Shown here one piece after another: positions 15,534-42,629 of a stretch of 46,330 nt of DNA. Position 1 is the stretch's first letter. Each line of letters starts with the position of its first letter. Source of the DNA: Neptunicoccus sediminis (GTDB taxonomy: Bacteria > Pseudomonadota > Alphaproteobacteria > Rhodobacterales > Rhodobacteraceae); contig NZ_MDVX01000015.1 in the NCBI RefSeq assembly GCF_001719615.1, positions 1 to 46,330 on the forward strand. Reading direction: 5' to 3'. The notes beneath the pieces were generated by a model. The model saw nothing but the letters and a program-made list of their open reading frames with translations. It searched no databases and was not told where the DNA came from. Position numbers and translations under genes: made by a program.

Positions 15534-16484
15534 TTATTTAACAGCCCCCTGGTCAATCTGGTTCATACGCTGGCGAAAGTAACGGTGAAGCCCCGCTATA
15601 CGCAGCCAGCGGGTCAGCTTTTCGCAGTAAAAATTTGTGGCCCCGTAGCGGCGGTGGCGAAATGCCCAGACGTGGCTCTTGTTACGCAGGGCAAGCAGAA
15701 AGCGTTCCATCATGCCAGGTTTGACGGGTGCCATTTCGGGAAGATAGCCGCGCGCCTGCATCATCGCACCGGCCCTGTGTTCCAATATGGCAATATCTCT
15801 CGGGTCAGCTTTGTGACGCCATTGCTGGACAAGTGTGTGATCCGGAGCCGAATACGTGGTCCCGTGGTAGTAATCCATCATCTGCGGATCATAAGAAAGC
15901 CCGAGGAAATTACAGATGTCCCGAAGCTGGTTTTCAGGGTCGGATAGAAGCGTTTCATATTTCAGTGTGAAGACGGGCGGGGGGGATGTTTCGCTCTCTA
16001 CGACATCCCATGCAGCTTCGGTGTTCAGCCAGTGTTCCACCCCATGATAGGTTGTTCCTGCCCACCCCATGACAATTGAGGACCGCGCCACATCGCGAGG
16101 ATCGCGCAGCAAATGTATCAGCGGTGCATGGGGCAGGATGGCAATAATCCGGTCCACATGACGGTGAATATTGATCGACAGGATTTTTTCGGAATGTTGG
16201 CTTTTAAGTTCCCGCAGAAAAGCCTCTAACAGGTCCAGTCCGTCCAGACCGGGCAAGAGGGTCATGCCATGAACCTGAAAAATCCGGTTCAGCGTGAGCG
16301 CCGCCAGATCATAACGCCAGCCGGTTGGATGGGTCGGGTCGGGGTGCAGATGGTCAAACAGAAAATCCATCTCGCCAGGATTGGCAATTTGGGGATGGGC
16401 GTTCAGCATCAACCGGAACACTGTTGTGCCTGACCGCAGTGCGCCATACACGAATACAATGTCGCGGGTGGTCAAAGTATTCAT
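15534..16484 (-). CDS. sulfotransferase family protein
   Basis: The 316-residue cytosolic protein has the PAPS 5'-phosphosulfate loop near the N-terminus (YGALRSGTTVFRL, 13-25). It also has the 3'-phosphate motif LLRDPRDVARSS (125-136), the second PAPS-binding element. Sulfotransferases of this type move sulfate from PAPS to a hydroxyl or amine, and in surface-glycan clusters the acceptor is often a sugar. The gene stands alone on the minus strand between the kinase operon and the large RTX gene. A second, different sulfotransferase lies at 36481-37389, so sulfated polysaccharide is a reasonable inference. The ATG at 16484 follows a weak ribosome binding site. Confidence 0.88.
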   Translation of the reverse strand: MNTLTTRDIVFVYGALRSGTTVFRLMLNAHPQIANPGEMDFLFDHLHPDPTHPTGWRYDLAALTLNRIFQVHGMTLLPGLDGLDLLEAFLRELKSQHSEKILSINIHRHVDRIIAILPHAPLIHLLRDPRDVARSSIVMGWAGTTYHGVEHWLNTEAAWDVVESETSPPPVFTLKYETLLSDPENQLRDICNFLGLSYDPQMMDYYHGTTYSAPDHTLVQQWRHKADPRDIAILEHRAGAMMQARGYLPEMAPVKPGMMERFLLALRNKSHVWAFRHRRYGATNFYCEKLTRWLRIAGLHRYFRQRMNQIDQGAVK

Positions 16485-19579: not shown

Positions 19580-20039
19580 TATATAGAGTCCCAGTATGAG
19601 CCGGAGAATGAATGGCAGGGCACCAGAAATCCGACGGCAGAGAAGTTCGCGCCAACACATAAAAACTATTCCCCCCGTGTCTATTCGATGTTTTGAGCAT
19701 GACCATTTCAGGCGGAATATTACCACATTTGGGAGCGGTAGGCAGATTATGGCTTAAAATAGGGGGCGGTTGTGGCTATCGCGACAGCCCGCGGTGTTGG
19801 CGCGTGACAGATTCCGGCTGGGTCTGTTCCGGCGATTCAGGTCAGGGGCTTGTGCTTTTTGCCTGACAAGACGCAAATGTGCGAGCCCCGAAGCCAACCG
19901 GCAGCGTGGGTCCTGCACACCACCGGATCGGGATGTTACGCGTAGCCGTGACACATCTTTCAAAACACAGTGGGGATTATGACTGTCAGGGGGTATCGGA
20001 CGTCATCCGCGCGCTGCGGCAGGACATCAAATTGAAATG
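19580..20039. other. intergenic region upstream of the large RTX gene
   Basis: These 460 bases hold the possible upstream extension of the RTX frame (to 19726) and then no convincing gene. Several short frames on both strands between 19750 and 20000 lack ribosome binding sites and look like shadows of one another. Promoters for the RTX gene should lie near 19665-19760, where an A+T-rich patch occurs. Confidence 0.35.
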
Positions 20040-20922: not shown

Positions 20923-22521
20923 CTAAAGTCCCGGGACGAAACGGGGCATCACGGAGGTAAGCTCGAGGAAGGTATTTTGCAGGCGTGCCTCTGCATCGGC
21001 GTCTGTTTCGTCCTTTGCAATCGGGGTGGTCAAACGCACGAGCGCGCCGTCAGTCCGGCCAATGGTCAACCCATCCCAAAGCAGATAGATTTTGGCTGCC
21101 AGATCCCAAGCCACGTGGCGACCGTGCTGCTCAAACCAGTAATAGACCAGCATTCGGGATTCGCCCTTCTGGATCACGGCGCGGTTCAAATTATAAGTCC
21201 CTGCCAGGCCGGACTGCGGGGCGACATCGAACCGTTCCAGCCAAGCGATCTCCCAGCCTGCACCTGGCAGGCAGATTTCGGGGGAGTGGGTGCCATTTCG
21301 GGTTTGATCGTCATACCATGCAATGAACAGTCCTACCTGTGCTGCGGCATCAGAACGGGCGAGCTGGACCGCAAGGTAGTCATCGGCACCCAGAACCTGT
21401 GCGACATTTTCAGTTAAAACTTCGGGAGTGCCGACATTCCAAGGGCCCAGATTTTTTGGAAACAGCAAAAAAGGTTCGCGATCAACCGGGCCGGTGTCTA
21501 TCTGCGGGCGGGCCTGCCAGCTTATCGATGCCAGCGACAGCACGACGGCTGACAGAATGAGAGCCTTTGACGGCTCGATCAAGCGGATGCGGGTCGCCTG
21601 CGTCACCCAGCCGGAGGTGTCCAGATCCAGCGCGTCCAGAAGCGGCATTTTCTCAGCTGTAAACCGCAGCATGACCCAGGCAAGAAGAAACAGGATCACC
21701 ACGCAAATCATAAAGATGACCCAGCCTTCAAAGAAATGGCTGAAGCCTTCGAGATATTCCAGCCCCAGATAGTTCACCAGCCAGCCGGCAAAGGCGATGC
21801 GCACCGAATTCATCACAATTGTGATCGGTGCGGCCGCCAGAAGCAGGACGGTTTTATGCCAGATGGAACCGCGAAACAGCACTGCAAATATGTAGGAGAA
21901 CGACATGATGGGGAACAGATAACGCAGGCCGGAGCAGGCTTCGGCCACGTGCAGTTTGTAAACCCCGAGATCAATGATGTTGCCCTCAAGAAAGACAGGT
22001 ACATTGATAAGTTGCAACATCCAGACGCCAAGTTCTGACGACCAGGCCTGTAGGATGGTGGACATTTTATAATAAATGACCCCCGGCAATGGCAGCATGA
22101 AGACAAGATGCACCACCGGTGGCCAAAACTGCTTGCCCTGTTGCCAGCCCCAAGAGATCAGCAACATCGCTCCCACCCAGAGAATCAGCGCATAGGCTAC
22201 GATATCGTCAATCCGCGCCTGTTTGCCCACGGCCCCGATCAGTAGTGCAAAGACCAGCAAGGCGATCCCCGCGCCGCGGTCGGTAACAGGATCGGAGGTG
22301 ACGGGGACATCTTTAAGCTGGCGTAAAAAGAGCAACAGGGACAACACCGGAATCAGGGGTCCATGGCTGTACTCGGGGCGTTCCCATGCGGTTAACAGCG
22401 CGGCAACGCCCTCTTGAAAATACAACAGCGCGGCAAGTGTTGCGATCACCAGCCAGAAAGTGCCAGCGTGGAAATACCCATTCAGAGCGGAAAACGTTCT
22501 TTGTTTATGGATCGCGGGCAT
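20923..22521 (-). CDS. xrtD: exosortase, XrtD type, with fused EpsI domain
   Basis: From ATG 22521 the protein has 532 residues (a TTG at 22539 would add six). The first 290 residues form a polytopic membrane domain with the exosortase triad: Cys196 in AEACSGLRYLFP, Arg241 in MNSVRIAFAGW and His262 in FSHFFEGW. After a basic linker and another membrane segment, the C-terminal 210 residues form an EpsI (DUF3485) domain with the hallmark HSPEICLPGAGW (412-423). The fusion of both parts is the layout of exosortases paired with VPLPA-CTERM proteins, and just such a protein is encoded 370 bases upstream on the same strand. Exosortases act at the inner membrane as transpeptidases that remove the C-terminal signal, probably linking the protein to a surface molecule. 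Confidence 0.92.
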   Translation of the reverse strand: MPAIHKQRTFSALNGYFHAGTFWLVIATLAALLYFQEGVAALLTAWERPEYSHGPLIPVLSLLLFLRQLKDVPVTSDPVTDRGAGIALLVFALLIGAVGKQARIDDIVAYALILWVGAMLLISWGWQQGKQFWPPVVHLVFMLPLPGVIYYKMSTILQAWSSELGVWMLQLINVPVFLEGNIIDLGVYKLHVAEACSGLRYLFPIMSFSYIFAVLFRGSIWHKTVLLLAAAPITIVMNSVRIAFAGWLVNYLGLEYLEGFSHFFEGWVIFMICVVILFLLAWVMLRFTAEKMPLLDALDLDTSGWVTQATRIRLIEPSKALILSAVVLSLASISWQARPQIDTGPVDREPFLLFPKNLGPWNVGTPEVLTENVAQVLGADDYLAVQLARSDAAAQVGLFIAWYDDQTRNGTHSPEICLPGAGWEIAWLERFDVAPQSGLAGTYNLNRAVIQKGESRMLVYYWFEQHGRHVAWDLAAKIYLLWDGLTIGRTDGALVRLTTPIAKDETDADAEARLQNTFLELTSVMPRFVPGL

Positions 22522-22890
22522 CTTTGAAACACTCGTCAAATTGGGGTCTTGCCGCGCAGGGAGCCGTCCCGAGACAGAAAAGTAGCGGGACTGCTACGCG
22601 ATCTGGAGTAAGTTATTAGATCACACATGCAGCATTGCGCCAAACGTCTTGTTTCATCCTTTGGGCCGCTCAAAGCGCGCCTTTGTTTGCGAAGGGTCTT
22701 CAGACCGCTTTGCGCAGTTTCATCCCGCCATAGCGCAAAACGCTTACACGTCAGAATTTCTAAGGATGTTTCAGGGCGCTCCTCAAAAGAAGGCCTGTGA
22801 TAATGTCCGGATCAGGATAATGCCGGACCTACCAGAACTCGGAACAGGAGAGGAGCGGGCGTCTGACGCCCGTCCATGTCTTGGCCCGTT
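22522..22890. other. intergenic region between VPLPA-CTERM gene and exosortase
   Basis: No gene is supported in these 369 bases. A seven-pair hairpin with a three-base loop (22856-22862 with 22866-22872) lies 18 bases after the stop of the VPLPA-CTERM gene, but it is followed only by a pyrimidine-rich stretch, so it is a weak terminator at best. The exosortase may be transcribed from this region or by read-through from the substrate gene. Confidence 0.4.
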
Positions 22891-23559
22891 TTATGCTTTT
22901 GTCCGTTTGCGACGCCGTGCAAAGCCCAAGGCCCCAAGTGCGCCGAGCAAAAGCATTCCACCCGCAGGCAGTGGCACAACTGCCGGAACAGCATCCGCCG
23001 AACGGACTGTTATGCTTGCAATAGCAAAGCTGGAATGCTTGAACTTATCCTTTTTTTCAAGAAATGAGTCCAAGGCCGAAACATCAAACCGGTTTGAGGT
23101 GTGATCGTCTGTGAACGTATAGGTTTCCACAACGTCACCTGTCAGGGTCTCAAGGCCACTGGTGGCAAATCCAAAGTCGTCCCGCTTTTTGAACTTTCTG
23201 AAGGTGATGCTTTCGATGGTCACATCGGTGTCAAAGTTGAAAACAACCGTTTCCTCAGCGCCTTTGGAGTCAATTTTGGCGGAATTGTCGTTTTTGCCGG
23301 ATTTTACGCCTAAGCCGAAATCCTTGGCCAGTACTTTGGAACTGGAGGTAACATCTTTGGGGTTGGTCTTAATGGCACTGACCATCAAGCCAATATCGCC
23401 CTGTGTGAAATCGAGTATCTTTGCCCGTTTCATCTTTTCGGCAGTGAAGTCAAAGGTAACACTGGCGGCCCCGGCCGTTACCGTCGAAAGAGCCATTCCA
23501 AGCCCTAAGGCCAAAGCTCCGTTAGTCAGGTTCTTCAAATTCAATTCAAAACTCCACAT
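22891..23559 (-). CDS. VPLPA-CTERM sorting-domain secreted protein
   Basis: The start at ATG 23559 has GGGAAG seven bases upstream and gives a 222-residue protein; an in-frame extension to 23643 has no such support. A signal peptide (1-32, ending TAGAA) leads into a beta-rich domain of about 160 residues that starts VTFDFTAEKMK and is rich in Asp, Lys and Thr, without a recognised enzyme motif. The C-terminus is a complete sorting signal: VPLPAGG (195-201), a hydrophobic helix, then RRRKR and the last three residues. This matches the VPLPA-CTERM signal recognised by XrtD, encoded directly downstream. The protein is probably processed and released to, or fixed on, the surface, perhaps as a matrix component. 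Confidence 0.92.
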   Translation of the reverse strand: MWSFELNLKNLTNGALALGLGMALSTVTAGAASVTFDFTAEKMKRAKILDFTQGDIGLMVSAIKTNPKDVTSSSKVLAKDFGLGVKSGKNDNSAKIDSKGAEETVVFNFDTDVTIESITFRKFKKRDDFGFATSGLETLTGDVVETYTFTDDHTSNRFDVSALDSFLEKKDKFKHSSFAIASITVRSADAVPAVVPLPAGGMLLLGALGALGFARRRKRTKA

Positions 23560-23959
23560 AGTAAAACTTCCCAATCTGGCCATTTGCGCAGATCTACAAA
23601 CTAAAAACTGACGAAGCCTGATACATAGACTTCCGAGACTCACTTTATTTAATTAGTTAATCTAAGCACAGTTGGAGTAATTTTCCAACCGCAACATTCC
23701 TAGATCCGGTAACTTTTAAGAGACTTAACGCGCGAAAACTGGATTTCCAGTATTATTCCACCAAAGCCGCCCCAAAAATGCGCTTTTTGGGAAAGGTAGG
23801 GTGGCATTTTGGGTGCCTGAAGGTAGCCAATTTTGCTGATAAGGGCGCGGAAACAACTTCTGGAACTTTCTTTGGTTACTGTGTAATCGAAATCTGTAAA
23901 TTTCACAGAGATGCGCCGGCCAGGCTGGCATCTTCCGATATTACAAGGCCATTGAACAG
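23560..23959. promoter_or_regulatory. divergent intergenic region, VPLPA-CTERM gene and adenylation-fusion gene
   Basis: These 400 bases are clearly A+T-richer than the flanks and must contain promoters for both genes. A perfect eight-pair hairpin CCCAAAAA-TGCGC-TTTTTGGG lies at 23771-23791, and its left half also pairs with GCATTTTGGG at 23804-23813 (one extra A), so two alternative structures overlap. This could be a regulator site or an mRNA switch. Short frames here lack coding character. Confidence 0.45.
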
Positions 23960-26743
23960 ATGACGATTGCACAAACCGTTTCCCCCCAGAACCAAACCTG
24001 GCGTGCCTGGCATGATTTTGCAGCGATGGCCAAAGCCCATCCGGGCCGGCCGGCCCTTCGGGTGGACGGAGTGCGGTACAGCTACGGCCAACTGGCGGAG
24101 ATGGTCAGTGGTTTTGCCGGTGCGATCCGCGCTGCCACATCAGCAGAACAAGCGCCGGTCACGGGGGTTTTTGCGGATCGAAGTGTCCAGTCCTATGCCG
24201 CGGTATTGGCAGCGCTGCGCTGTGGCCATGCCTATGTACCGCTGAACCCGAAATTCCCTGACAGCCGCAACCGTCTGATACTTGAACGTTCGGGTGCGTC
24301 CTGTCTGATCGCCTCGCCGCGGGCTAAAGGACGCGGCAAGGCAATTCTGGCGGCCGAGACAGAGATGACGACACAAGCAGGGGGCGGTGGCGCTCCGGCT
24401 CTGATTACTGTGGCGGATATGGTGCCGGAGCCTTTGGAACCGGCCCCGCATGACAACGGCTATGCTTATATTCTGTTCACCTCGGGCAGCACAGGGACGC
24501 CGAAAGGGGTTGCGATCCGGCATTCCAACCTTGCCGCCTATCTTGAGGCGGTTTTTGCCATGGTGCCATACAGCGCCGAGGACCGGTTCTCGCAGAATTT
24601 TGACCTGACTTTCGATTTGTCGGTGCATGACATGTTCTGCTGCTGGCGGGCGGGTGGCGAATTGATCGTCCCGAGCGTGGCGGATCTGGATGATCCGGCG
24701 GCCTATGTGAAACGGGACGGGGTGACGGCGTGGTTCTCGGTGCCGTCGCTGGCGCAGAAAATCGCCCTGCGGGGTAATCTGAACCACGAGACTCTGGCGG
24801 GATTGCGGATATCCCTGTTCTGCGGTGAAGCCTTGCCGGTGGAACTGGCGCAGAACTGGCAGGGCGCAACAGGGCAGGGGGTGGAAAACTGGTACGGCCC
24901 GACTGAGGCCACCATCGCTTGCACCCGCTACGCGCTACCTGCTGTGGGCGCGCCAGTCTCTGAACGCTTCGGACTGGCCCCGATCGGGCAGGCGTTGCCC
25001 GGAATGAAGACCCTTATCCTGCGGGAAGACGGCAGCGCGGCGCCAGTGGGGGAGACAGGCGAATTACTGGTGTCGGGGCCGCAACTGGCGGACGGTTATC
25101 TGGCAGATCCCGAAAAAACGGCCGCAGCTTTCGTGGACCTGCCGGAATTTGGCGGGCGGTATTATCGTACCGGAGATCGTGTGCTGGCCGATGAAACCGG
25201 CGCGATTTTCTTTGTGGACCGGATCGACAACCAGATTAAGATCCGGGGCTATCGTGTTGAATTGGGGGAAATAGAGGCAGAAATCCGCAACCGTGTGGAC
25301 GGGCATTCCGTGGTGGTGACGCCGCTGCCGTTGAAATCCGCCACTCCGACAGCGCTGCTGGCCAGTGTAGAAGGCTGGGCGGGGGATACCCGCGCGGTGC
25401 TGGAGGATCTGAAACGCTCTTTGCCTGACTATATGGTGCCCACCGACCTGCGCAGTCTGGGACAGTTCCCCAAGAATGCCAGCGGCAAGATTGATCGCGG
25501 TGCCATTGGCACCTTGGTGACAGCCAATCCCGCCCCGGCCGCTTCGGGCCAGCCCAAACGGGTGCGCAAGCAGGTGATCGAACTGGTTCAGGCCATCAAT
25601 CCGGCCATCTCCCGCGAACGGATACTGGAGGCACCCGATCTGATGGAGGCGGGGCTGGATTCCCTTGCCTTCACCGAATTCACCCTTGCGCTGGAAAAAA
25701 CCTTTGGCATTGCGCTGAACCAGATGCTTGTGGCGCGGATGTCCGAAATGTCGATCCAGAATCTTGTGCCGCTGATCAAGCGCCGGATGGAAAATACTCC
25801 GATGGCGAAGAAGGGGCCAAAGGGTAAAGCGGGCAAAGGCGGCAAGGGAAAGGGCAGAGGCGTGCAGGACGTGAAAAAGACCGTCCATTACCGGGCCCGT
25901 CGTGCCGTGGAATGCGTGGACAAGTTTCCCGGTTTTGTCGCGGCAGCGCCCCACCCGCTCGCCCTGTTTATCGGGTCTTCCGGGATGATGTCGGGCACCG
26001 TGGCGCCGGTGATTGAGGCGCGGGCTGCCGAATTGGGGATGCCGGTGACGGCGGCCAATCTTGGCACCGGAAAACTGTCCAATGCGGGGACCACGGAACT
26101 GGCGGAATTTGTCCGCGATACGCTGATCGCTGCCGGGAAGCCTGTGGCCTTTGTGATCTACGAAGTGGAGCTGATGCAGATGTCTTCCCTGCCGTCAGGG
26201 CGGGAAATCGAGGTGGTAAAAGACTATCTCAAGGGGGGCTATGAGGTGGGCGAACTGCCAAGCCTCGATCCCAATAACATCTGGGATCCGGCCACCGGCG
26301 GGACCATCGGGTTAAAAGAGGGAAAGGTACTTTCGGATCCCGAAGATGTCAGTGCGCGTGAACCGGACTGGATGAAAAAACGCGCCACCGAAGTGATGGA
26401 AACCTATCTTGGCAATACGGAAATGGTGCCAGCCGAAGCGGATATTTTCCTGCGCGGGGTCGCGGCGATGAAAGAGGTTTGCGACACGGTGGTGGGTTTT
26501 GTCCATCCATTGAATGCGGATGGCATTGCAGAGACGCGCGCGGTCAATCCGGACAACAGGTTTGATCCTTTCATAAGGGATCTGGAAACCCGTGGCGGCT
26601 TTGAAATCCTGCCCCATACGGATTTTGTTCTGGCTGCTGAGGATTATCGGGACAAGAACCACGTCAACAAGGCGCGCGGTGCGGCCAGCCTGTCACGTCT
26701 GCTGGCAGAGGCCGGTGTTAAGGCTGTGAAAAACAAGGCGTAG
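23960..26743 (+). CDS. adenylation domain - carrier domain - DltD-like SGNH domain fusion protein
   Basis: The 927-residue protein joins three parts. Residues 1-515 are an acyl/amino-acid adenylating enzyme of the DltA/NRPS type: LFTSGSTGTPKG (172-183), WYGPTEA (311-317), YRTGD (402-406), and the late lysine in NASGKIDR (K511). Residues 535-610 are a carrier domain with the phosphopantetheine serine in AGLDSLAF (Ser568). A Lys/Gly-rich linker (616-640) leads to a C-terminal domain (650-927) with FIGSSGMMSG (669-679, serine 673 or 674) and DKNH (898-901), the Ser and DxxH of SGNH enzymes such as DltD. In Gram-positives, DltA, DltC and DltD are separate and need the membrane protein DltB; no DltB-like gene is nearby. 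There is no signal peptide, so the protein appears cytosolic. Transfer of an activated residue to the polymer is inferred. Confidence 0.85.
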   Translation: MTIAQTVSPQNQTWRAWHDFAAMAKAHPGRPALRVDGVRYSYGQLAEMVSGFAGAIRAATSAEQAPVTGVFADRSVQSYAAVLAALRCGHAYVPLNPKFPDSRNRLILERSGASCLIASPRAKGRGKAILAAETEMTTQAGGGGAPALITVADMVPEPLEPAPHDNGYAYILFTSGSTGTPKGVAIRHSNLAAYLEAVFAMVPYSAEDRFSQNFDLTFDLSVHDMFCCWRAGGELIVPSVADLDDPAAYVKRDGVTAWFSVPSLAQKIALRGNLNHETLAGLRISLFCGEALPVELAQNWQGATGQGVENWYGPTEATIACTRYALPAVGAPVSERFGLAPIGQALPGMKTLILREDGSAAPVGETGELLVSGPQLADGYLADPEKTAAAFVDLPEFGGRYYRTGDRVLADETGAIFFVDRIDNQIKIRGYRVELGEIEAEIRNRVDGHSVVVTPLPLKSATPTALLASVEGWAGDTRAVLEDLKRSLPDYMVPTDLRSLGQFPKNASGKIDRGAIGTLVTANPAPAASGQPKRVRKQVIELVQAINPAISRERILEAPDLMEAGLDSLAFTEFTLALEKTFGIALNQMLVARMSEMSIQNLVPLIKRRMENTPMAKKGPKGKAGKGGKGKGRGVQDVKKTVHYRARRAVECVDKFPGFVAAAPHPLALFIGSSGMMSGTVAPVIEARAAELGMPVTAANLGTGKLSNAGTTELAEFVRDTLIAAGKPVAFVIYEVELMQMSSLPSGREIEVVKDYLKGGYEVGELPSLDPNNIWDPATGGTIGLKEGKVLSDPEDVSAREPDWMKKRATEVMETYLGNTEMVPAEADIFLRGVAAMKEVCDTVVGFVHPLNADGIAETRAVNPDNRFDPFIRDLETRGGFEILPHTDFVLAAEDYRDKNHVNKARGAASLSRLLAEAGVKAVKNKA

Positions 26744-29881: not shown

Positions 29882-32143
29882 ATGGTGCGTATTATAGCGA
29901 AATCGGAATTTGGCGCGGCGATTGATGCCGGTTATCTGGAACAGGCGCTGCCTGAAATGGAGAGCATTTACGGCGATCTGTTCGGCGCTCTGGGCTGGGC
30001 CATGGATTCAGGGCTTGCTCCGGTCAGTCTGACCGCTTCGGAAATCCGCCTGTCGGGAAATGCCTACGGCTCTATTGATTTTGAAATTGTGGCATCGGGT
30101 TCTGGTATTTCGCCGGTCAGCAGCATTGACGAACTGGACGATGCGCTGACAGACGGGATGGCCACGGGGACATTCAACAAGATCAGCTTCAAAGCCACCA
30201 AAGACGCAGGCTATCCGGGGGATAGCGCCTATGACGACGAAGAATTCCTGACCGTTGATATTGCTAAATCCGGCTATACCCTGACCTCGGGCGCGCAGGT
30301 GATTTCCATCACCGGCTCTGTGATTACCAGCCTTGAAGAACTCAGCGGCGTGGCTGAACTGGCCGAAGGGCTCTCCGAGTATGACAGCCTGTCTGCCAGC
30401 GAACGGTCCTTCCTGCTGAGCAAACTTGCAGATTACGGCATCACCGGCTTTAGCATTGCCAGCGAAGGTGTTGAAATACTGGCCTTTGACGCAACAACGA
30501 CAGCCATCTCGATCAGCGTGCTGGGCTATAAATACCAGTTGAACGGCAGCTTCCCGACCGATTTCGGCGGTGCCGTCCCGATGCTGATGGAAGTGACCGA
30601 TTTCGTTGGAAACGGCGGCCGGCTGAAATTCAATGACATTGCCGGCTTCAGCGTCAACAACATCCGTGTTTTCAACCCCGACGGGGAAGTGATCCTGAAG
30701 TCCAAAGGCAAACTTGGCAATACAGACACCATTGGCGATGCCATCCTGAAATTCGACGGCACACTTATCAAGAACCTGATGGTGGGGGAAAACGGGTCGA
30801 ACGAACTGGGGTACGGGTATGTTCCGAATGATTTCCTGACCGGCGCGGGGGGTAAGGACCATATCTTTGGTCTGGCAGGGCACGACAGCCTGGCCGGCGG
30901 CGCTGGCAATGATTTCCTGTATGGGGGCAGCGGCAATGATGTTTTGCACGGGGGCGCGGGAAATGACCTGCTGAACCCCGGTGACAACCTGTCCTACGAC
31001 CAGATCATCAGCTCTGCCGGCGATGATACGATGGTCTTTTCAGATATGCTGACCGGCTATGTGGATCTGACTTATTCCGCCGAATCCAAAGGGATCACAG
31101 CCTTTATCGACGGAAACGCAGGCACCGGCACAGTGGTCAAGAAAAGCGGCACCGATACGCTGGTGGATGTGGATGTGCCAATGCAGGCCGCCTATATGCC
31201 CCAAGGGATCGGCGGTTTCGGGCTGATCGGCACGCAGTTTGCTGACAGTTTCACGGCAACGGTTGCAAAAAACGGCTGGATGTCTGTCTTTGGCGGCGCT
31301 GGCACCGACAGTTTTGATCTGACCATTGAAAGTGGATCAATCCTGCGCCTGTCATTTGACAGCGGATTTCTCGGCGGGACCGACGGTGCCGATGTGGATG
31401 TCGCGGGGGGTATCATCAATAACGACGGCTACGACAATTACGAGCGTCTTAGCGTGACCTCCAACGGTGGGCTTCTGGAACTGCAGGGGACGATTTACAA
31501 TGACCGTCTGGTGGGCAGTAACATTGATGAACGTTTCATTCTGCTGAGCGGGGATGATTATGCCGATGGCGCGGGTGGCGTGGATCTGGTGCGCTATGAC
31601 CGTTCCGGCGTGGAATATGTGGATGCCCATTTGGGCAAGAACAAAGCCACGGGTATCTGGAACGGGGTGGAGTTCACCCATAAAATCAAAAACATGGAAG
31701 ACCTGCGCGGTTCGCGGGACGGCGATGACAAGCTGATCGGCAACGGCAAGGCCAATGAAATCCGCGGCCGGGGCGGTGATGACAAGCTGATCGGCAAAGG
31801 CGGCAAAGATGACCTGCGCGGTGAAGCCGGTGATGATCTGCTCAACGGCGGCGGTGGCCGCGACAGGCTGACCGGCGGCAGCGGCGATGACGTGCTGATG
31901 GGCAAGAAGGGCAATGACACGTTTGTCTTCAATGGCTCTGCGAATGAAGGCCGCGACACCATTCGCGATTTCAAGAACAATAAGGATATGCTGGAAATCT
32001 CGGACACCAGTTTTGCCGAGCTGAGCATCAAGAAATCCGGCGGCGGCTCCGATACGCTGATCAGTCTTGAAAGCGGCACAGAAATCCTGCTGGAAGGCGT
32101 CTCCAAATCCCAAATCGACGCGGGTGATTTCGACTTCGTCTAA
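29882..32143 (+). CDS. RTX calcium-binding secreted protein, unrecognised N-terminal region
   Basis: The 753-residue protein has no signal peptide. Residues 1-315 show no known enzyme motif and are rich in Ser, Gly, Asp and Ile, with repeated ITG/ISG-type strands, suggesting a beta-rich adhesive or matrix region. A first RTX block (about 320-370) has GGKDHIFGLAGHDSL-type nonapeptides. A middle region (370-610) is again beta-rich. A second RTX block (about 613-685) leads to a C-terminal segment with DTFVFNGSANEGRDTIRDF, the usual end of type I secreted proteins. AAAGG lies nine bases before the ATG. An intrinsic terminator follows within 61 bases. No type I transporter gene is in the window. 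Confidence 0.85.
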   Translation: MVRIIAKSEFGAAIDAGYLEQALPEMESIYGDLFGALGWAMDSGLAPVSLTASEIRLSGNAYGSIDFEIVASGSGISPVSSIDELDDALTDGMATGTFNKISFKATKDAGYPGDSAYDDEEFLTVDIAKSGYTLTSGAQVISITGSVITSLEELSGVAELAEGLSEYDSLSASERSFLLSKLADYGITGFSIASEGVEILAFDATTTAISISVLGYKYQLNGSFPTDFGGAVPMLMEVTDFVGNGGRLKFNDIAGFSVNNIRVFNPDGEVILKSKGKLGNTDTIGDAILKFDGTLIKNLMVGENGSNELGYGYVPNDFLTGAGGKDHIFGLAGHDSLAGGAGNDFLYGGSGNDVLHGGAGNDLLNPGDNLSYDQIISSAGDDTMVFSDMLTGYVDLTYSAESKGITAFIDGNAGTGTVVKKSGTDTLVDVDVPMQAAYMPQGIGGFGLIGTQFADSFTATVAKNGWMSVFGGAGTDSFDLTIESGSILRLSFDSGFLGGTDGADVDVAGGIINNDGYDNYERLSVTSNGGLLELQGTIYNDRLVGSNIDERFILLSGDDYADGAGGVDLVRYDRSGVEYVDAHLGKNKATGIWNGVEFTHKIKNMEDLRGSRDGDDKLIGNGKANEIRGRGGDDKLIGKGGKDDLRGEAGDDLLNGGGGRDRLTGGSGDDVLMGKKGNDTFVFNGSANEGRDTIRDFKNNKDMLEISDTSFAELSIKKSGGGSDTLISLESGTEILLEGVSKSQIDAGDFDFV

Positions 32144-32292: not shown

Positions 32293-33000
32293 TCAGGTAT
32301 TTTCAATGTTTGCAGATATAGCCGTAAATCTTTCCAGCACGATATCCACACGACCCTCGGGGCCTCTGATGTTGCCGGCCACAAAATCCTCGAAGTCATA
32401 ATGCTGTCGTAAGACTCCGAATTGTTCGGCGATGAAGCTTTTGATCTCATTCCCAGAACGATCGATTTCGTTTACCAGCTTCTCTCGCCCATCAACAACC
32501 AAGAGGATGTCTTCGACATCACGGCTCATAAGGAGGTCGTCTTCCCCGCGGCTCAGAAAGGCGTCCAGCTTAGTCGCGATGAAAATCTCTGGTCGTAAAT
32601 GTTTGATCACTAATTGGTCGTTCAGAGGATAGGTCAGAGCTGTCTTGATGCCCTGCGGGTACCAACGATTACTAAAGCCAAGGATATTGCCATCGTCGGG
32701 CATGAAGTCGACCTTGAGATCACCCAACCGCATCCGGCAAATGACTTGATCCTCATGGTTTTCCGAAAATCCCCTTTCCCGCAGATATTCCAGAAGCTGC
32801 ACCCACTCTCCGTAGCCAGACAGGTTTATGGCCAGATCCACATCATCCGTTGCGCGGACGTCTTCCAGAGTTACCGGATCTATGATGAACAGTGCCGTAG
32901 TGCAGCCGCCCACAAAAACACACCGCTCACGCAGGTCAGGCCCGATCGCTTGGGCGACCGTTTCAAGCATCTCTCGCAGTTGTCCCAGCACATTGGTCAT
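32293..33000 (-). CDS. nucleotidyltransferase-fold protein (AbiEii-like), possible toxin
   Basis: The 235-residue protein has the core of the DNA polymerase beta-like nucleotidyltransferase fold: VFVGGCTTALF (28-38), then ATDDVDLAI (50-58) with the metal-binding D53 and D55, and a later acidic strand LKVDFMPDD. This arrangement is shared by AbiEii-type toxins and by other minimal nucleotidyltransferases. A second conserved block, IFIATKLDAFLSRGEDDLL, with the family lysine and downstream acidic residues, follows near residues 139-157. The start overlaps the stop of the upstream HTH gene by four bases (ATGA), so the two are translationally coupled. A toxin-antitoxin or defence role is inferred from this pairing only. 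Confidence 0.7.
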   Translation of the reverse strand: MTNVLGQLREMLETVAQAIGPDLRERCVFVGGCTTALFIIDPVTLEDVRATDDVDLAINLSGYGEWVQLLEYLRERGFSENHEDQVICRMRLGDLKVDFMPDDGNILGFSNRWYPQGIKTALTYPLNDQLVIKHLRPEIFIATKLDAFLSRGEDDLLMSRDVEDILLVVDGREKLVNEIDRSGNEIKSFIAEQFGVLRQHYDFEDFVAGNIRGPEGRVDIVLERFTAISANIENT

Positions 33001-33545
33001 CGGCTCAAGATCTCCTCTGATAAACGGTCTGCGGCTAGTTTGAATTCCCGCTGCCGGCCCAATCTCATGGCATCGATGAGGGCAAGATATTCGTACAGAC
33101 GTTCGTCCTCCTGCACAGCAAAAGGGACCGACTTGAAAAGAGGTTCAACTGATTGCCCGAGATCTTTCCCATGGGCATAGGGCCACACACAAAGATGCTC
33201 TCCACCAGAAATCAGGAGGCTGTCCAGCATGGGAGCGGCAAAGCCGGTCGGGAGACCCCGCGTTAAACCGCCCGGCTTGACTGGAAACACAAACTTCAGC
33301 CCGTGACTGATGAAATTGCACAGATCACGTCGGTTCGGCTTTGGCCTGTCAAATTCGCGGTCCTTGATGGCAAGGCCAGAGGCGTAACATCGGTTGATCG
33401 AAGTGCTTACCTCCGACTTGCTGATGCCAAGAGACGCGCCTAATCCCCTCACAGAGTAGACATCCTTGCCCAGTGATTGGCCAAGCTTCTCAGCCTCCTG
33501 AAGGCTCGCCAGTTTGAGCAGGATGACGATGTCCTGGCTTTTCAT
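32997..33545 (-). CDS. small HTH protein paired with the nucleotidyltransferase, possible antitoxin/regulator
   Basis: From ATG 33545 the protein has 182 residues. A GTG at 33587 would add 14, but it lies inside the palindrome that looks like the operator, so the ATG is preferred. The N-terminal 60 residues contain a helix-turn-helix: GLGASLGISKSEVSTSINR is the recognition region, in a MarR/winged-helix-like setting. The remaining 120 residues are not recognised. In AbiE-type pairs an HTH antitoxin (AbiEi) precedes the nucleotidyltransferase (AbiEii) and represses the operon, which matches the gene order and the ATGA overlap here. The resemblance to AbiEi is by layout, not by clear motif identity. 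Confidence 0.6.
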   Translation of the reverse strand: MKSQDIVILLKLASLQEAEKLGQSLGKDVYSVRGLGASLGISKSEVSTSINRCYASGLAIKDREFDRPKPNRRDLCNFISHGLKFVFPVKPGGLTRGLPTGFAAPMLDSLLISGGEHLCVWPYAHGKDLGQSVEPLFKSVPFAVQEDERLYEYLALIDAMRLGRQREFKLAADRLSEEILSR

Positions 33546-33563
33546 TATACACTCGCAATTTGT

Positions 33564-33583
33564 CCTAAGTCCGTGGACTAAGG
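33564..33583. promoter_or_regulatory. palindromic operator-like site upstream of the HTH gene
   Basis: CCTAAGTCC (33564-33572), two bases, GGACTAAGG (33575-33583): eight of nine pairs match. It lies 18 bases before the ATG at 33545 on the minus strand, where a repressor encoded by the HTH gene would be expected to bind. Confidence 0.6.
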
Positions 33584-33587
33584 CCAC

Positions 33588-35606: not shown

Positions 35607-35712
35607 TGGAATGAACTCCTTAATAAAATCGAGACTACATTCAGGGCCTATGAGGCATCCGGATGTAGAGCCATTGTTCGAGACGTGGGCAGTAATGTGG
35701 GTGATGGGGGCC

Positions 35713-36480: not shown

Positions 36481-37389
36481 TTACTTCGTGTAACCCACCT
36501 TTTTGGCCAGCGGGAAATTGATCCGTTCGGCCATTTTGCGATAGGGGGCGTTTTCGTCGGATTTCCAGCTTTCGGAAGGTCTGATTTCGATATGGGTGGC
36601 CCGCTTTTCCAGCACTTCTTCATTGGCAGGGGGGAAGAGGTGATTGCGTTCCCAAGAGATGTCCGCCTCGGTCTCCGACGTGAAGAAATCGGTGCCCACC
36701 TTCAAGCCGGCCCAGGTCTGGATGTCTTCGATTGTCTGGCGCGGGGTGCTGGCCAGGTCTTCGTAGCGTAGTTGCAGGAAAGGCGCATCGCTGCCCTGTT
36801 GAAAGGCTTCCATCCGGCGCACGCGGTTGCTCCAGTTGCGCGCCCGCTGTTGCAGGGTCTCTTTCTTTTGCACCCGTTTGGCCCAGCTGGCATTCACCGC
36901 ACGGGGATCGCGCAGCAGGTTCAGCGTATAAAGCGAGATTTCGGGGATCAGGCTGAGAGAGAGCGCCACATCGGGGGCTTTGGAACTGTCAATCAGCGCG
37001 GCCCCGCCCGCTTGCCGCGCGGCGGTTGCATAGAGATCGCCAAGCAGGGTCAGATATTCTGCGTTTTCCTGCCGGATCAGATCCCGCACCGCAGCGTCTT
37101 CCCAGCCGCTGTTCTGTGTGGCAAAGGTTTTGAAAGCGGGAGCGCCGGTTTTCAAACGCTCAAAGACATCGGCCCCGTGCCGGTCTGTCATTTCGGTCGC
37201 AAACGGCCCCCAATAGGCGCACTCCTGTATCGGCTGATGGCAGGCACAGGTCTCGTTGCGTTTCAAGGCGAGCGGCAGGTGGCGGATCTGTCCGAGATTG
37301 AAACAGTCGTCGTTCTGGGAGAGCAACTGGGACAGGAAGGTGCTGCCGGAGCGGCCGGCCCCTGCGATATAGACAACTTTGGTAGACAT
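36481..37389 (-). CDS. sulfotransferase family protein (second)
   Basis: The 302-residue cytosolic protein has a PAPS-binding loop at the N-terminus, YIAGAGRSGSTFLSQL (7-22), and a later LLRDPRAVNASWAKR element matching the 3'-phosphate-binding motif. It also contains a small Cys/His-rich patch (ETCACHQPIQEC, about 46-57), not usual for the family core, which could bind metal. It is different in sequence from the sulfotransferase at 15534-16484. It follows the KpsM-type permease by about 40 bases on the same strand, so the pair is likely co-transcribed and the protein may sulfate the capsule exported by this system. The ATG at 37389 follows GAGAGC. Confidence 0.88.
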   Translation of the reverse strand: MSTKVVYIAGAGRSGSTFLSQLLSQNDDCFNLGQIRHLPLALKRNETCACHQPIQECAYWGPFATEMTDRHGADVFERLKTGAPAFKTFATQNSGWEDAAVRDLIRQENAEYLTLLGDLYATAARQAGGAALIDSSKAPDVALSLSLIPEISLYTLNLLRDPRAVNASWAKRVQKKETLQQRARNWSNRVRRMEAFQQGSDAPFLQLRYEDLASTPRQTIEDIQTWAGLKVGTDFFTSETEADISWERNHLFPPANEEVLEKRATHIEIRPSESWKSDENAPYRKMAERINFPLAKKVGYTK

Positions 37390-37428: not shown

Positions 37429-38238
37429 TTACAGGTTCAACAGATCACGGTGATAGCGGTTCAGCAGCAACAGGCCGAGCGCCAGCGTGATCAGTCCGAA
37501 GCATAGCACATAAGGGACCGAGACATAACTCGCTTCATAGGTGGGATAAAATCCCCGTCGCATCAGACCAGTGATATGGGCCACCGGATTGAACCACAGG
37601 ATGTCGCGGAACTGGGACGGAATATCTTCCATTATGAAGAAGATGCAGGACATAATGAACATGGGCGTGGTGATAATGCTCCAGAGTGTGCCCCACATGG
37701 GAAACCGCGTGATCAGGTAGCAGTTCAGACAGCCCACCCCAAGCCCGAGCAGCGCGGCCAGCGCAAAAGCGGTGATGATGGTGGGCAGATCGAGAATGGT
37801 TTCAATCCGAAACAGCATGATAATCAAAGAGAACAGCAGATAGGACACGGCGATCTGGGTCACAACATTCAACAGGAACCGCGCGATAATCGCATCCGTA
37901 TAGCGCACGCCCGGATAGCGTAGCAGCGGCTTGGAGAAGCTCAGCGCATTGGACAGTTTGCCCGAGAGCTGCATGTAAAGTTGAAAGGGCATCATCGCGC
38001 TGGCGTAAAACAGCCCGAAACTGGTGCCAAGCGAGGGGCTGCGCAGGGCGGCGGAAAACACGAAGGTCATCAGGGTGATCGCGGCCACAGGCTCCATCAC
38101 CGCCCAGAAATACCCCCCCGGCGTGCGCCCGTAGGTGGTCGACATTTCGCGCAGGATCAACGCCAGAATCGTGCGGGGCGTCTTCAGCCGGCGGGGTTTG
38201 AGCGGTGCGGCTGGTGCGGGGATTTCACTGGAGGACAT
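37429..38238 (-). CDS. kpsM: polysaccharide ABC transporter permease (KpsM type)
   Basis: The start at ATG 38238 gives 269 residues, the family's usual length; the frame continues to 38352 without a ribosome binding site. The protein is of the ABC-2 polysaccharide export type: an N-terminal cytoplasmic segment with TILALILREMSTTYGRTPGG, then six membrane segments (for example YFWAVMEPVAAITLMTFVF and the last one near LGLLLLNRYHRDLLNL), plus the LWFNPVAHITGLMRRGFYPTY block before the final segment. It moves lipid-linked capsular polysaccharide across the inner membrane, powered by KpsT, which is encoded on the opposite strand 1.4 kb away. It is divergent from KpsE, with a short shared promoter region at 38239-38352. 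Confidence 0.9.
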   Translation of the reverse strand: MSSSEIPAPAAPLKPRRLKTPRTILALILREMSTTYGRTPGGYFWAVMEPVAAITLMTFVFSAALRSPSLGTSFGLFYASAMMPFQLYMQLSGKLSNALSFSKPLLRYPGVRYTDAIIARFLLNVVTQIAVSYLLFSLIIMLFRIETILDLPTIITAFALAALLGLGVGCLNCYLITRFPMWGTLWSIITTPMFIMSCIFFIMEDIPSQFRDILWFNPVAHITGLMRRGFYPTYEASYVSVPYVLCFGLITLALGLLLLNRYHRDLLNL

Positions 38239-38352
38239 GGCGCGGGGATATATTCCATCAGGGCAGGGCTTGGGGCGGAATTCGTACTTGGGTTTATGGC
38301 CAAGCACAGGTAAACAATCAAACATAAATTTACGCGGGCGCGAGGGCGGCAT

Positions 38353-39657
38353 TTGGAAGATCGGAACAACAGGGATGCAGAGTCTGACGATGCATCACAG
38401 GATGATCAGAACGCAGACGATCAAAACGGGGGCGGGAATAACAAACCCAAGAAACAACGGCGCCAGATCAAGAAACTGAAGCAGGAACTGCGCGAGGTGC
38501 AAAAAGCCCCGCCCACCGTTGTGGTGGCGGATGTTGCACCGCGGGCCAGAATGAAGAAACGCCATTACGGCGTTCTGCTGATCTTTCTGTTTTTCGTGGT
38601 GCTGCCGTCGGCCGGGGTCTTTTGGTATCTCTACGAACGGGCGGCGGATCAATATGCTTCGCGGATCGGCTTTGTGGTGCATACCGAAGACACCAGTGCC
38701 GTGACAGATGTGCTGGGCGGGGCGATCCAACTGGGCAGTGGCGGCTCCAAGGATACGGATATTCTGTATGAATTCATCCGCAGCCAGCAGCTTGTCTCTC
38801 TGGTGGATCAGAAACTGGATTTGCGCAGCCTTTATGCCAAACCGCAGAATGATCCGGTCTTTGCCTTCCAGCAGGATGGCACGATCGAGGATCTGCTGGA
38901 CTACTGGTCCAGAATGGTGCGGGTCTATTATGATGTGGACACCCAGTTGATCGAATTGCGGGTGCAGGCCTTTGATCCGGATGATGCTTATAACATCGCC
39001 CAGGAGATTTTCGCCCAGAGCACCGTACTGGTCAACCGGCTGTCAGCGGTGGCGCGGGAAGACACGCTGCGCTATGCCCGCGAGGAACTGCAAACCGCCG
39101 AAGACCAGCTCAAAGCGGCCCGTCAGGCGCTGACACGGTTCCGCAATGAAACCCAGATCGTCGATCCTTCGGCGGATGTGCAGGGGCAGATGGGGCTGTT
39201 GAATACGCTTCAGGCGCAACTGGCGGCAGCATTGATTGATCAGGACATCCTGCGCGACACCACACGGGACAATGATCCCCGTATGGTGCAGGCCGCCCGC
39301 AAGATCGAGGTGATCCGCAAACGCATTGCCGAAGAACGCCAGACCTTTGGCCTGAGCGGTGACGGTGGCGGCAGTAATTCCGAAGAATTCAACGCGTTGC
39401 TGGCCCAGTTTGAAGCACTGACCGTGGATCGGGAGTTTGCCGAGAAAGCCTGGCTTGCGGCCCGTTCCGCCTATGACGGCGCGGTGATCGAAGCCAACCG
39501 CCAGAGCCGCTATCTTGCGGCTTATGTGGGGCCGACCCGTGCGGAAAAGGCGCAATATCCCGAACGGATCATGCTCTGGGTGATGACGACACTGGTGCTG
39601 TTTTTGGCCTGGTCGATCCTGACCCTGATCGGCTATTCCATCAAAGACCGCAGGTAG
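38353..39657 (+). CDS. capsule export inner-membrane protein (KpsE/CtrB type)
   Basis: The 434-residue protein starts at a TTG (38353) with GAGGG upstream. An Asp/Asn/Gln-rich, then Lys/Gln-rich cytoplasmic tail of about 70 residues precedes the first membrane segment (VLLIFLFFVVLPSAGVFWYLY). The periplasmic domain contains long Glu/Gln/Ala coiled coils (about 230-320), and a second membrane segment ends the protein (WVMTTLVLFLAWSILTLIGYSI). This is the KpsE/CtrB/BexC plan, which bridges the inner-membrane ABC transporter and the outer-membrane KpsD/Wza-like channel. The N-terminal polar tail is longer than in typical KpsE. KpsT follows six bases after the stop. An ATG about 68 codons downstream is possible but would remove only the tail. 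Confidence 0.85.
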   Translation: MEDRNNRDAESDDASQDDQNADDQNGGGNNKPKKQRRQIKKLKQELREVQKAPPTVVVADVAPRARMKKRHYGVLLIFLFFVVLPSAGVFWYLYERAADQYASRIGFVVHTEDTSAVTDVLGGAIQLGSGGSKDTDILYEFIRSQQLVSLVDQKLDLRSLYAKPQNDPVFAFQQDGTIEDLLDYWSRMVRVYYDVDTQLIELRVQAFDPDDAYNIAQEIFAQSTVLVNRLSAVAREDTLRYAREELQTAEDQLKAARQALTRFRNETQIVDPSADVQGQMGLLNTLQAQLAAALIDQDILRDTTRDNDPRMVQAARKIEVIRKRIAEERQTFGLSGDGGGSNSEEFNALLAQFEALTVDREFAEKAWLAARSAYDGAVIEANRQSRYLAAYVGPTRAEKAQYPERIMLWVMTTLVLFLAWSILTLIGYSIKDRR

Positions 39658-39663: not shown

Positions 39664-40335
39664 ATGATCCGTCTGGAGGGGCTGAACAAAACCTTCATCA
39701 TGCGGGGCCGCCGCAAGGTGATTGCAAACGATATGAATATCGTTTTTCCCAAAGGCGTGTCTGTGGCTCTGCTCGGGCGTAACGGGGCGGGGAAATCCTC
39801 GCTACTGGCGATGATCTCGGGGTTTCTTGCCCCTGACAGCGGCAAGATCCATATCGACGGCACGCTCAGCTGGCCGGTGGGCTTTGCTGGCAGTTTCCAC
39901 AAGGATCTGACCGGCGCGCAGAACATCCGCTTCATTGCGCGGGTTTACGGTGTGGATACGGACGGTCTGATTGATTTCGTGCGGGATTTTGCCGAACTCG
40001 GCCCCCATTTCGACCTGCCGGTGCGCACCTATTCCTCGGGGATGAAATCGCGCCTGTCTTTCGGGGTCTCTATGGGGGTGCGGTTTGACACCTATTTGGT
40101 GGATGAAGTCACAGCCGTTGGCGATGCGGATTTCAAAAAGAAAAGCCGCGCGGTGTTTATGGAACGGATGAACGCCAGCGGTTCGATTTTTGTCACTCAC
40201 TCCATGGGGGCGGTGCATAATTTCTGCGAAGCCGTGGCCGTGCTCGAAAAAGGCAAGCTGACCTATTACGATGACGTAGAAGAGGGCATTGCCGCCCATC
40301 AGGAAAACATGGGCGGCGACGAGGATGACGATTAA
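39664..40335 (+). CDS. kpsT: polysaccharide ABC transporter ATP-binding protein (KpsT type)
   Basis: The 223-residue protein has a complete ATPase motif set: Walker A GRNGAGKSS (38-46), signature YSSGMKSRL (123-131), Walker B TYLVDEVTAVGD (143-154, Asp147-Glu148) and the switch histidine in VTHS (177-180). The degenerate GMKSRL signature, short length and YSSGM block are characteristic of capsule export ATPases such as KpsT and Wzt. It powers KpsM. It follows KpsE by six bases, and the M20-type pseudogene starts nine bases after it. The C-terminus is acidic (GGDEDDD). Confidence 0.93.
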   Translation: MIRLEGLNKTFIMRGRRKVIANDMNIVFPKGVSVALLGRNGAGKSSLLAMISGFLAPDSGKIHIDGTLSWPVGFAGSFHKDLTGAQNIRFIARVYGVDTDGLIDFVRDFAELGPHFDLPVRTYSSGMKSRLSFGVSMGVRFDTYLVDEVTAVGDADFKKKSRAVFMERMNASGSIFVTHSMGAVHNFCEAVAVLEKGKLTYYDDVEEGIAAHQENMGGDEDDD

Positions 40336-41513: not shown

Positions 41514-42629
41514 CTAGAATGCCGTGTTGCCGGCGCGGATTGTGCTGGTGAACAGGCCAATGATAGTTTCTGCCAGTACAACAGGGCTTTCTGTGACCAT
41601 TACAGTGTCTTCGGGGTGGATCAGAAACCGGTCTGCACTGAACAGCCCGTCTGCTTTGGTCAGATCCACTGAGAAGATCACCCGCTGGTGGTCGGGCCCG
41701 CCGCTGCGCACCGCAGAGGCAGGGTATTCCCGCAGGATCAGGATGCCTTTGGGATCGGCACGGCCTTCCCGCAGCCCGCCAATCATCGACATGGCATCAA
41801 GGGCGGAAATCACCTCGCGGTCAAAGGGTACGATGGCTTCGGTGGCCGAAGCCCCGAGCGAGCGGAAGAACCGATCGTCGCTGGAGACAATCACTTTGTC
41901 GCGCCCGCGCAGAACCGTATCAAGGGTCGGGTTTTCGTAAAGACGTTTCAGCGCGATCTGATAAACCCTGCCGCCCCTTGTCAGCGAGACCTGCGGATTG
42001 TCCAGCCCGTCCGCAACACCGCCCCCCTGTGAGATCAGGCCAAGCACGGTCATCCGCCCGTCCGGATCATTCAGCGGATAGCTGCCCGGCTGGGACACGC
42101 CCCCCACCAGATCCACCGAATGGCGCGATCCCGGTGTGACCGCCAGCTGGACCTGTGCCGAAGGAATGATCTGTTCCATCTGGCGCTGGATTTTTTGGCG
42201 TGCCGCATCCGCCGAAAGCCCTGCAATGTGGATTTTCTCAAGGTAGGGCATGAAGATCGTGCCGCTGCGGGACACGAGCATATCTTCAAGCGTTGTGCTT
42301 TTCTGGTCGGGACTGGTCAGAAGGGAGTTCACTTCACTGTCCCAGATCGTCAGGCGGACCATATCACCGGGGGCAATCGCCACGCTGGTGGCCCCGCCGC
42401 CGCGCAGCCAGTGCCGCTCTGCGCTGGTATCGCTTGGCCAGCGTTCAATCTGGGGCAGCAGGTTTTTCGTGACCTGATAGACCGCAAATTCTGCCGGTTC
42501 GTTTTTGTTCTGTTTGGTCAATTCCCGTTGCAAAGGTGCGCCACGCGGCAGCGAACAAGCGACCACGATTCCCAAAACGGCCCCCAGTAAAATCAGTTTT
42601 TTTATCGGGGAAAACAGTCGTTGGGACAT
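41514..42629 (-). CDS. polysaccharide export lipoprotein (KpsD/Wza type)
   Basis: The 371-residue protein begins with a lipoprotein signal (lipobox IVVAC, Cys25) after a strong ribosome binding site AAGGAAG. The polysaccharide export domain (about 80-170) includes VRLTIWDSE and VSRSGTIFMPYLEKIHIAG, and SLBB-like domains follow (VDLVGGVSQPGSYPL and later VIVSSDDRFFRSLG). This is the Wza/KpsD outer-membrane channel layout, larger than the export protein at 7614-8207. It lies downstream of the M20 gene in convergent orientation and divergent from the yjb genes, so it is likely the outer-membrane exit for the KpsMTE system or for the YjbH/F polymer. The eight-residue pitch and terminal NTAF do not add a domain. 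Confidence 0.92.
   Translation of the reverse strand: MSQRLFSPIKKLILLGAVLGIVVACSLPRGAPLQRELTKQNKNEPAEFAVYQVTKNLLPQIERWPSDTSAERHWLRGGGATSVAIAPGDMVRLTIWDSEVNSLLTSPDQKSTTLEDMLVSRSGTIFMPYLEKIHIAGLSADAARQKIQRQMEQIIPSAQVQLAVTPGSRHSVDLVGGVSQPGSYPLNDPDGRMTVLGLISQGGGVADGLDNPQVSLTRGGRVYQIALKRLYENPTLDTVLRGRDKVIVSSDDRFFRSLGASATEAIVPFDREVISALDAMSMIGGLREGRADPKGILILREYPASAVRSGGPDHQRVIFSVDLTKADGLFSADRFLIHPEDTVMVTESPVVLAETIIGLFTSTIRAGNTAF

Follow-up and report, generated by a model that had tools for sequence, protein, structure and literature searches.

Two major systems of bacterial polymer acylation, MBOAT-SGNH and AT3-SGNH, have been counted so far, and both use a membrane acyltransferase (PMC12148441). 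In these systems, as in PatAB, the acyl group crosses the membrane via an MBOAT or AT3 protein and an SGNH domain serves as the final transferase to the glycan. In the Dlt pathway of Gram-positive teichoic acid D-alanylation (DltA, DltB, DltC, DltD and DltX), an adenylation enzyme, a carrier and a membrane-anchored, extracytoplasmic SGNH transferase act serially on a surface polymer. The AlmEFG system of Vibrio cholerae is Gram-negative and carrier-based, and glycinylates lipid A by separate proteins, among them AlmG with its LPLAT domain (PMC3783018, PMC12930378). Here we analyzed a 46,330-nucleotide stretch of Neptunicoccus sediminis (contig NZ_MDVX01000015.1, positions 1 to 46,330; hereafter the window), in which one gene joins an adenylation domain (A), a carrier domain (PCP) and a C-terminal SGNH domain on a single soluble chain. 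We lean, with confidence modestly above even, toward reading this A-PCP-SGNH protein as a cytosolic, MBOAT-free, one-chain enzyme that transfers an aminoacyl group, probably glycyl, to a sulfated surface polysaccharide.

23960..26743, forward strand: A-PCP-SGNH protein, 927 aa; adenylation domain at residues ~20-520, carrier ~534-605 (Ser568), linker ~612-640, SGNH domain ~641-927 with the landmarks GSSG (672-675), Glu735, His849-Pro850 and His901

The original prediction had described this gene as one 927-residue chain ending in an SGNH domain, and both domain searches and AlphaFold2 modeling bear this out. The carrier matches PF00550 above the cut-off, with Ser568 as the phosphopantetheine serine. 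The C-terminal domain has no match in Pfam or NCBIfam, and its best E against solved structures by sequence, alone or as a profile, is only 0.3. AlphaFold2 models it confidently as an SGNH fold (predicted local distance difference test, 86.7), with PatB, TesA and DltD among the nearest folds. In this model Glu735 caps the third core strand, where the block III asparagine of SGNH enzymes is sought, and the position is invariant. The original prediction had noted the lack of a signal peptide, and none of the hydrophobic stretches of the window protein exceeds the threshold for a membrane segment, so that it appears soluble. Given that the SGNH domain is covalently joined to the carrier, it would be expected in the cytosol.

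The kinship with the Dlt proteins, in contrast, holds only in part. The carrier domain corresponds to DltC, and the SGNH fold is shared with DltD, but the DltA- and DltD-like character first ascribed to the protein is only partly borne out. It scores only 278.9 bits against the DltA equivalog TIGR01734 (cut-off 559.85), its adenylation pocket lies nearest to that of AlmE, and the DltD family PF04914 finds no match in the whole genome at E<=1 and in none of 14 C-terminal domains of the family at E<=0.1. Membership in either family was therefore rejected. Unlike the Dlt pathway, the system seen here consists of one soluble chain with sulfotransferase partners in a genome devoid of MBOAT, and its SGNH domain, which falls outside PF04914, mostly lacks the DxxH aspartate. 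It likewise differs from AlmEFG, whose AlmE has the nearest solved pocket, in that the C-terminal domain models as SGNH and not as an LPLAT-type transferase.

A search across genomes with the C-terminal domain recovered a family that is rare and scattered. Matches occur in 5 of 295 genomes of the taxonomic family, the source genome included (single-sequence query), in 6 of 390 genomes of the order sample (one a short fragment with a stop), in 3 of 385 of the class sample (one a partial match in genome G873) and in 3 of 398 of the phylum sample (one a partial match in genome G1241), the samples of all four ranks overlapping. A tblastn search of a plasmid collection with this domain gave two records, from Leisingera thetidis and Phaeobacter sp. 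G2, and in both the sole annotation of the gene is 'non-ribosomal peptide synthetase'. Among the literature matches listed, none describes an A-PCP-SGNH fusion. The members belong mostly to Rhodobacterales, the exceptions being loci L010 (Rhodospirillales), L012 (Caulobacteraceae) and L014 (Steroidobacteraceae). We compared 17 sequences, the window included, drawn from 14 loci of the genome scan, the copy of a congener (G394) and the two plasmid copies. L008 and L009 are one contig with overlapping ends, and four neighbors in L040 are 96-99% identical to those of L007; L009 and L040 were thus left out as separate loci, with L040 kept among the 17 sequences. Masked bases break the adenylation half of L013, which stays in the locus counts, and L014 stops at a contig end, so that the pocket and residues 898-901 are each readable in 16 of 17 sequences. 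Apart from these two, every member has the order adenylation, carrier, SGNH.

The catalytic landmarks are largely shared. Ser568, GSSG with the block I serine, Glu735 and His849-Pro850 are kept in all 17 sequences, and His901, the block V histidine, in 16 of 16 readable ones. The DKNH motif (898-901) pointed out in the original prediction is indeed present in the window protein, and its histidine is invariant; its aspartate, however, is not family-wide, the DxxH position being Asp in 5 and Asn in 11 of the 16 readable sequences. Asp898 was thus rejected as a family feature, as was the Lys/Gly-rich linker upon comparison of 15 linkers. Three side observations were made on relatives. The ends of contig NVUP01000014.1 (L008/L009) overlap over 17.1 kb at 99.99%, indicating that the cassette there is probably on a circular replicon of about 93 kb. 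A 1111-residue protein with adenylation and ATP-grasp matches is encoded at L034:4426-7758 in genome G580, which also carries a short piece of the SGNH domain. At L007:5290-7639 there are two neighbors (366 and 407 aa) that recur next to several relatives and have no match in Pfam or NCBIfam.

The adenylation pocket is nearly invariant in the family. When solved structures are ranked by their match to residues 200-345, 4oxi comes first (E 1.3e-27), before 6akd, 8k4r and the DltA structure 3e7w; over the whole adenylation domain 8k4r and 6akd outscore 4oxi. By their titles these structures are AlmE with glycyl-AMP (4oxi), IdnL7 (6akd) and VinM-VinL (8k4r). At the ten pocket positions, numbered after GrsA, 12 of the 16 readable sequences have DLHFLCWIAK, two have DLHFLCWISK, and one each has DPHFLCWIVK and DVHYFAWIVK. 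The first nine letters are D L H L F C L I A in AlmE and D L M T M C T V A in DltA, so that the window protein agrees with the former at six positions and with the latter at four. Asp219 and Trp311 each occur in all 16. The former, which we take to be the usual anchor of the alpha-amino group, leads us to expect an alpha-amino acid as the substrate, and the latter suggests a small one. For the specificity, left by the earlier analysis to be derived from the pocket, glycine would be the first guess and alanine (L or D) the second. Since D-alanine can be misactivated by AlmE (PMC12930378), even a close pocket match alone could not settle the amino acid.

Among the genes that accompany the family, sulfotransferases are the conserved ones. 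Those of the window, together with the polysaccharide export genes on its right-hand side, are as follows.

36484..37389, reverse strand: sulfotransferase ST2 (Sulfotransfer_3, 302 aa), homologue of the gene near A-PCP-SGNH in other loci
15534..16484, reverse strand: another sulfotransferase (Sulfotransfer_3, 316 aa), tentatively included at about 23-29% identity with the ST1 type
37432..38352, reverse strand: KpsM-like ABC-2 permease (80.6 bits against a cut-off of 300), on the strand of ST2 and 42 bp upstream of it
38353..39657, forward strand: KpsE/BexC/CtrB-like polysaccharide export inner-membrane protein (205.6 bits, under the cut-off of 437.5)
39664..40335, forward strand: ABC ATPase resembling Wzt/TagH/VexC (112.5 bits with the best model, under its cut-off)
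41514..42629, reverse strand: Poly_export/SLBB protein for polysaccharide export, sharing 50% identity with the gene immediately upstream of A-PCP-SGNH on plasmid pBMJM1_7
42836..45669, forward strand: YjbH gene and YjbF-like gene (30% identical), homologous to counterparts on two Roseobacteraceae plasmids

Of the 15 distinct other loci, 14 (all except L013) have ST2 no more than 1.3 kb from the A-PCP-SGNH gene; in L015 it is a 58-residue piece at a contig end, which was scored as present. The ST2 of the congener has a single match in the source genome of the window at E<=0.001, which is 55% identical and lies at window positions 36484-37389. Against 72,556 plasmid records, the best two matches of ST2 (50.2% and 45.7%) are both plasmids that bear the fusion, and the next reaches 26.5% (best 20 of 49 matches). 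The other type, ST1, is adjacent in five and fused in six of the 15 other loci. In these six sequences (L015-L020) an N-terminal sulfotransferase is part of the same chain, as judged from a Sulfotransfer_3 match inside five of the frames and from 73% identity for L018. Genomes contain 3-13 Sulfotransfer_3 matches each (ten genomes, nine with the fused protein plus G873), and judged from these genome counts alone the recurrent proximity of ST2 would not be expected by chance.

Such fusions could also mean that the sulfotransferase acts on the carrier-bound acyl group and that a sulfated acyl is then transferred. A precedent is suggested by the cyanopeptolin operon, in which a non-ribosomal peptide synthetase (NRPS) system combines a sulfotransferase with a glyceric-acid loading domain (PMC2533009). 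However, that system is a multi-module peptide synthetase in another context, and the accessible part of its description does not mention an SGNH domain. Moreover, Asp219 predicts an amino acid, Trp311 suggests a small substrate with no hydroxyl to sulfate, and in several loci the sulfotransferase-like genes are separate and number two or three. We therefore regard a sulfated acyl group as very unlikely.

Polysaccharide export or synthesis genes are found in several loci. The KpsM-like, KpsE-like and ATPase assignments in the window all score below the equivalog cut-offs of their models, and homologues of this trio occur within 10 kb of the A-PCP-SGNH gene in L007, L008, L011, L013 and L040. 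In one Vibrio, the cluster for a sulfated capsular polysaccharide holds sulfotransferase and ABC-transporter genes (PMC11641403). Adenosine 5'-phosphosulfate kinase is present in the source genome, but the same search is positive in 11 of 14 control genomes, so this enzyme is common. A second polysaccharide export protein is encoded at 7614-8225, and the two export proteins suggest that the window holds two polysaccharide systems, one of the XrtD type in its left part and one of the KpsMT/YjbH type in its right part. Also on the right, an amidohydrolase (TIGR01891) at 40345-41491 is split over two overlapping frames, one matching the first part of the model and the other its last, so that either the gene is frameshifted or the sequence contains an error. 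The stretch that separates A-PCP-SGNH from ST2 contains RTX, AbiEii-like and integrase-like genes. An island-like stretch at 32293-36244 comprises AbiEii-like (20.1 bits, under the cut-off), MarR_2-like and tyrosine-recombinase-like genes. Three large RTX proteins with calcium-binding repeats are encoded at 285-1946, 16754-19726 and 29882-32143, and similar genes occur on pBMJM1_7 of Leisingera and pPGA1_65 of Phaeobacter inhibens.

These two plasmids allow a direct comparison of one sugar locus with and without the fusion. On pBMJM1_7 of Leisingera thetidis the order is sugar transferase, epimerase, polysaccharide export, A-PCP-SGNH, sulfotransferase (ST2) and rfbA-D-B-C. On pPGA1_65 of P. 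inhibens DSM 17395 it is sugar transferase, epimerase, export, CatB-related O-acetyltransferase, rfbA, rfbD, metal-dependent hydrolase, rfbB and rfbC. The flanking genes are 87% (sugar transferase), 57% (epimerase), 78% (export), 90% (rfbA), 73% (rfbD), 91% (rfbB) and 78% (rfbC) identical, and beyond the compared stretch the genes are partly rearranged. Since export and rfb genes flank both, the A-PCP-SGNH cassette occupies the slot of a presumed sugar O-acetyltransferase, an enzyme of another annotated family that presumably depends on acetyl-CoA. The window itself resembles pPGA1_65 in its export (47%), YjbH (44%) and YjbF-like (30%) genes. Plasmids with a rhamnose operon, originally discovered in DSM 17395, reportedly mediate switching between a motile and a sessile lifestyle (PMC9426580), and we infer that pPGA1_65 is the plasmid of that report. 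For P. inhibens, a dltA cluster on the chromosome, described as exclusive to this species within the Roseobacter clade, has been reported, along with NRPS genes carried by plasmids of 69 and 71 kb (PMC4062626).

The annotation in the plasmid records raises the question of whether the protein is instead a small NRPS-like enzyme for the synthesis of a diffusible metabolite or of an aminolipid, with the SGNH domain as the releasing enzyme and the polysaccharide genes as mere neighbors. The presence of TesA-type thioesterases among the nearest folds would be consistent with this. In contrast, the domain search found no condensation domain in the window protein, sulfotransferases accompany nearly all loci and polysaccharide export genes several, and in one locally syntenic sugar locus the protein takes the place of an O-acetyltransferase. 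We consider such a role in metabolite synthesis unlikely.

A further possibility is that the carrier hands its amino acid to an unrecognized membrane acyltransferase, AT3 or other, and that the SGNH domain is accessory. This would follow the MBOAT plus SGNH or AT3-SGNH scheme of known bacterial polymer acylation (PMC12148441), and a distant SGNH relative does keep such company. In G873, from another family of the same class, consecutive genes (L033:9023-14195) encode an SGNH protein anchored by a hydrophobic N-terminal segment, followed by A-PCP, sulfotransferase and MBOAT proteins; the sulfotransferase shares about 26% identity with ST1. In G1241 an MBOAT adjoins an anchored SGNH protein (DltD 21.3 bits, cut-off 22.7). 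Both SGNH proteins match the profile of the fused family partially, at 24.5 bits (G873) and 30.8 bits (G1241). The A-PCP protein of G873 scores higher against two separate AMP-ligases of other loci (149 and 122 bits) than against the fused family (at most 92 bits), its sequence lacks the FDLSVHD pocket motif, and its adenylation domain looks, by sequence, like an acyl rather than an amino-acid ligase. The same four functions thus recur in company with an MBOAT, but we do not claim descent of the fused protein from a G873-type operon. The expectation that no DltB lies nearby extends to the whole genome, in which no MBOAT was found, and none was found in any of the 8 same-family genomes with the fused protein, the source genome included, although AT3 was not searched genome-wide. 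Genome G589, which has the fused protein, carries one MBOAT on another contig. The absence of a transmembrane segment from the window protein and the covalent tie between SGNH and carrier, which would keep both in the cytosol, also argue against a membrane-linked route, which we hold to be quite unlikely.

The gene had originally been placed in an exosortase locus, on account of the following neighbors.

20923..22539, reverse strand: XrtD exosortase (634 bits, cut-off 400), a neighbor whose association is not conserved
22891..23643, reverse strand: VPLPA-CTERM protein, divergent neighbor of the A-PCP-SGNH gene, association not conserved

If this arrangement were functional, the protein might decorate an exosortase-linked exopolysaccharide, as the nearby left-hand polysaccharide genes, XrtD and the divergent VPLPA gene would suggest. 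The promoter region shared with the VPLPA-CTERM gene is real but looks specific to this genome. Of the 9 genomes with the fused protein, 2 have an exosortase (3 of 11 when two distant relatives are added), and only in the source genome does it adjoin the gene. Furthermore, homologues of XrtD or VPLPA were not found around 14 related loci, the G873 locus or the two plasmids (flanks of up to 10 kb in most loci). The exosortase linkage was rejected on the basis of this homologue search and the genome-wide exosortase model, and identity with the exosortase-associated ligase TIGR03098 on its score of 196.5 bits against a cut-off of 592.35. We give very little credence to an exosortase-linked substrate.

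Decoration of a polymer by a single cytosolic chain, as first proposed, thus remains the likeliest reading, given the SGNH fold and the lack of both MBOAT and membrane segment. The adenylation domain would activate a small amino acid, likely glycine, at the expense of ATP and load it as an aminoacyl thioester onto the phosphopantetheine of Ser568 in the same chain; these two steps would be expected from the well-known families involved. The SGNH domain would then take the aminoacyl group onto a GSSG serine and transfer it in the cytosol to a sugar hydroxyl on a glycan that is lipid-linked or still growing, as the fold, the fusion and the exchanged slot suggest. In the same compartment, sulfotransferases dependent on 3'-phosphoadenosine 5'-phosphosulfate (ST2, often ST1, sometimes fused) would sulfate the same glycan, which would leave via the polysaccharide export machinery, of the KpsM/KpsE/KpsT kind in the window and some relatives. 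The amino acid, direct transfer from carrier to SGNH domain, the acceptor and the cytosolic site are each inferred rather than observed.

Several points weigh against this scheme. The chief uncertainty is that neither sequence nor fold separates a transferase from a thioesterase: TesA, one of the closest folds, is a thioesterase, and the SGNH domain could hydrolyze its substrate. With Asn in place of the DxxH aspartate in most sequences, catalysis must differ from that of DltD in most of the family. A single hydrophobic stretch barely above the threshold exists in 2 of 14 fused proteins scanned (L008 and L012). The pocket used to predict the amino acid shares just six of nine positions with AlmE. 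In the window ST2 lies 10 kb from the A-PCP-SGNH gene, a gap that the intervening RTX, AbiEii-like and integrase-like genes may explain, and the proximity of sulfotransferases was judged from genome-wide counts of Sulfotransfer_3 matches. The slot exchange rests on one plasmid; on that of Phaeobacter sp. G2 an rfb operon is present, but the A-PCP-SGNH gene is some 14 kb away, among genes for UDP-galactopyranose mutase, sulfotransferases, glycosyltransferases and an ABC exporter. Finally, the scheme is a prediction from sequence and a structural model.

At its fullest, the reading describes a third acylation route, free of membrane acyltransferases, in which a soluble chain with a mostly Asn-type SGNH domain would write glycine or alanine onto a cytosolic glycan. 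Sulfation would be coupled to it, on the same polypeptide in six cases, giving a polymer with both ammonium and sulfate groups, and the cassette, partly plasmid-borne, would be able to replace an O-acetyltransferase. To this full version we give somewhat less than an even chance. Even so, the annotation of the gene as merely a 'non-ribosomal peptide synthetase' in both plasmid records can be corrected. If true, the reading would mean that carrier-bound amino acids reach a glycan without a membrane acyltransferase, and that a carrier-fused cytosolic SGNH transferase forms a third, soluble acylation system open to a simple in vitro assay. It would also provide gene markers for aminoacylated sulfated polysaccharides and would name a decoration step on some of the rhamnose-operon plasmids of roseobacters.

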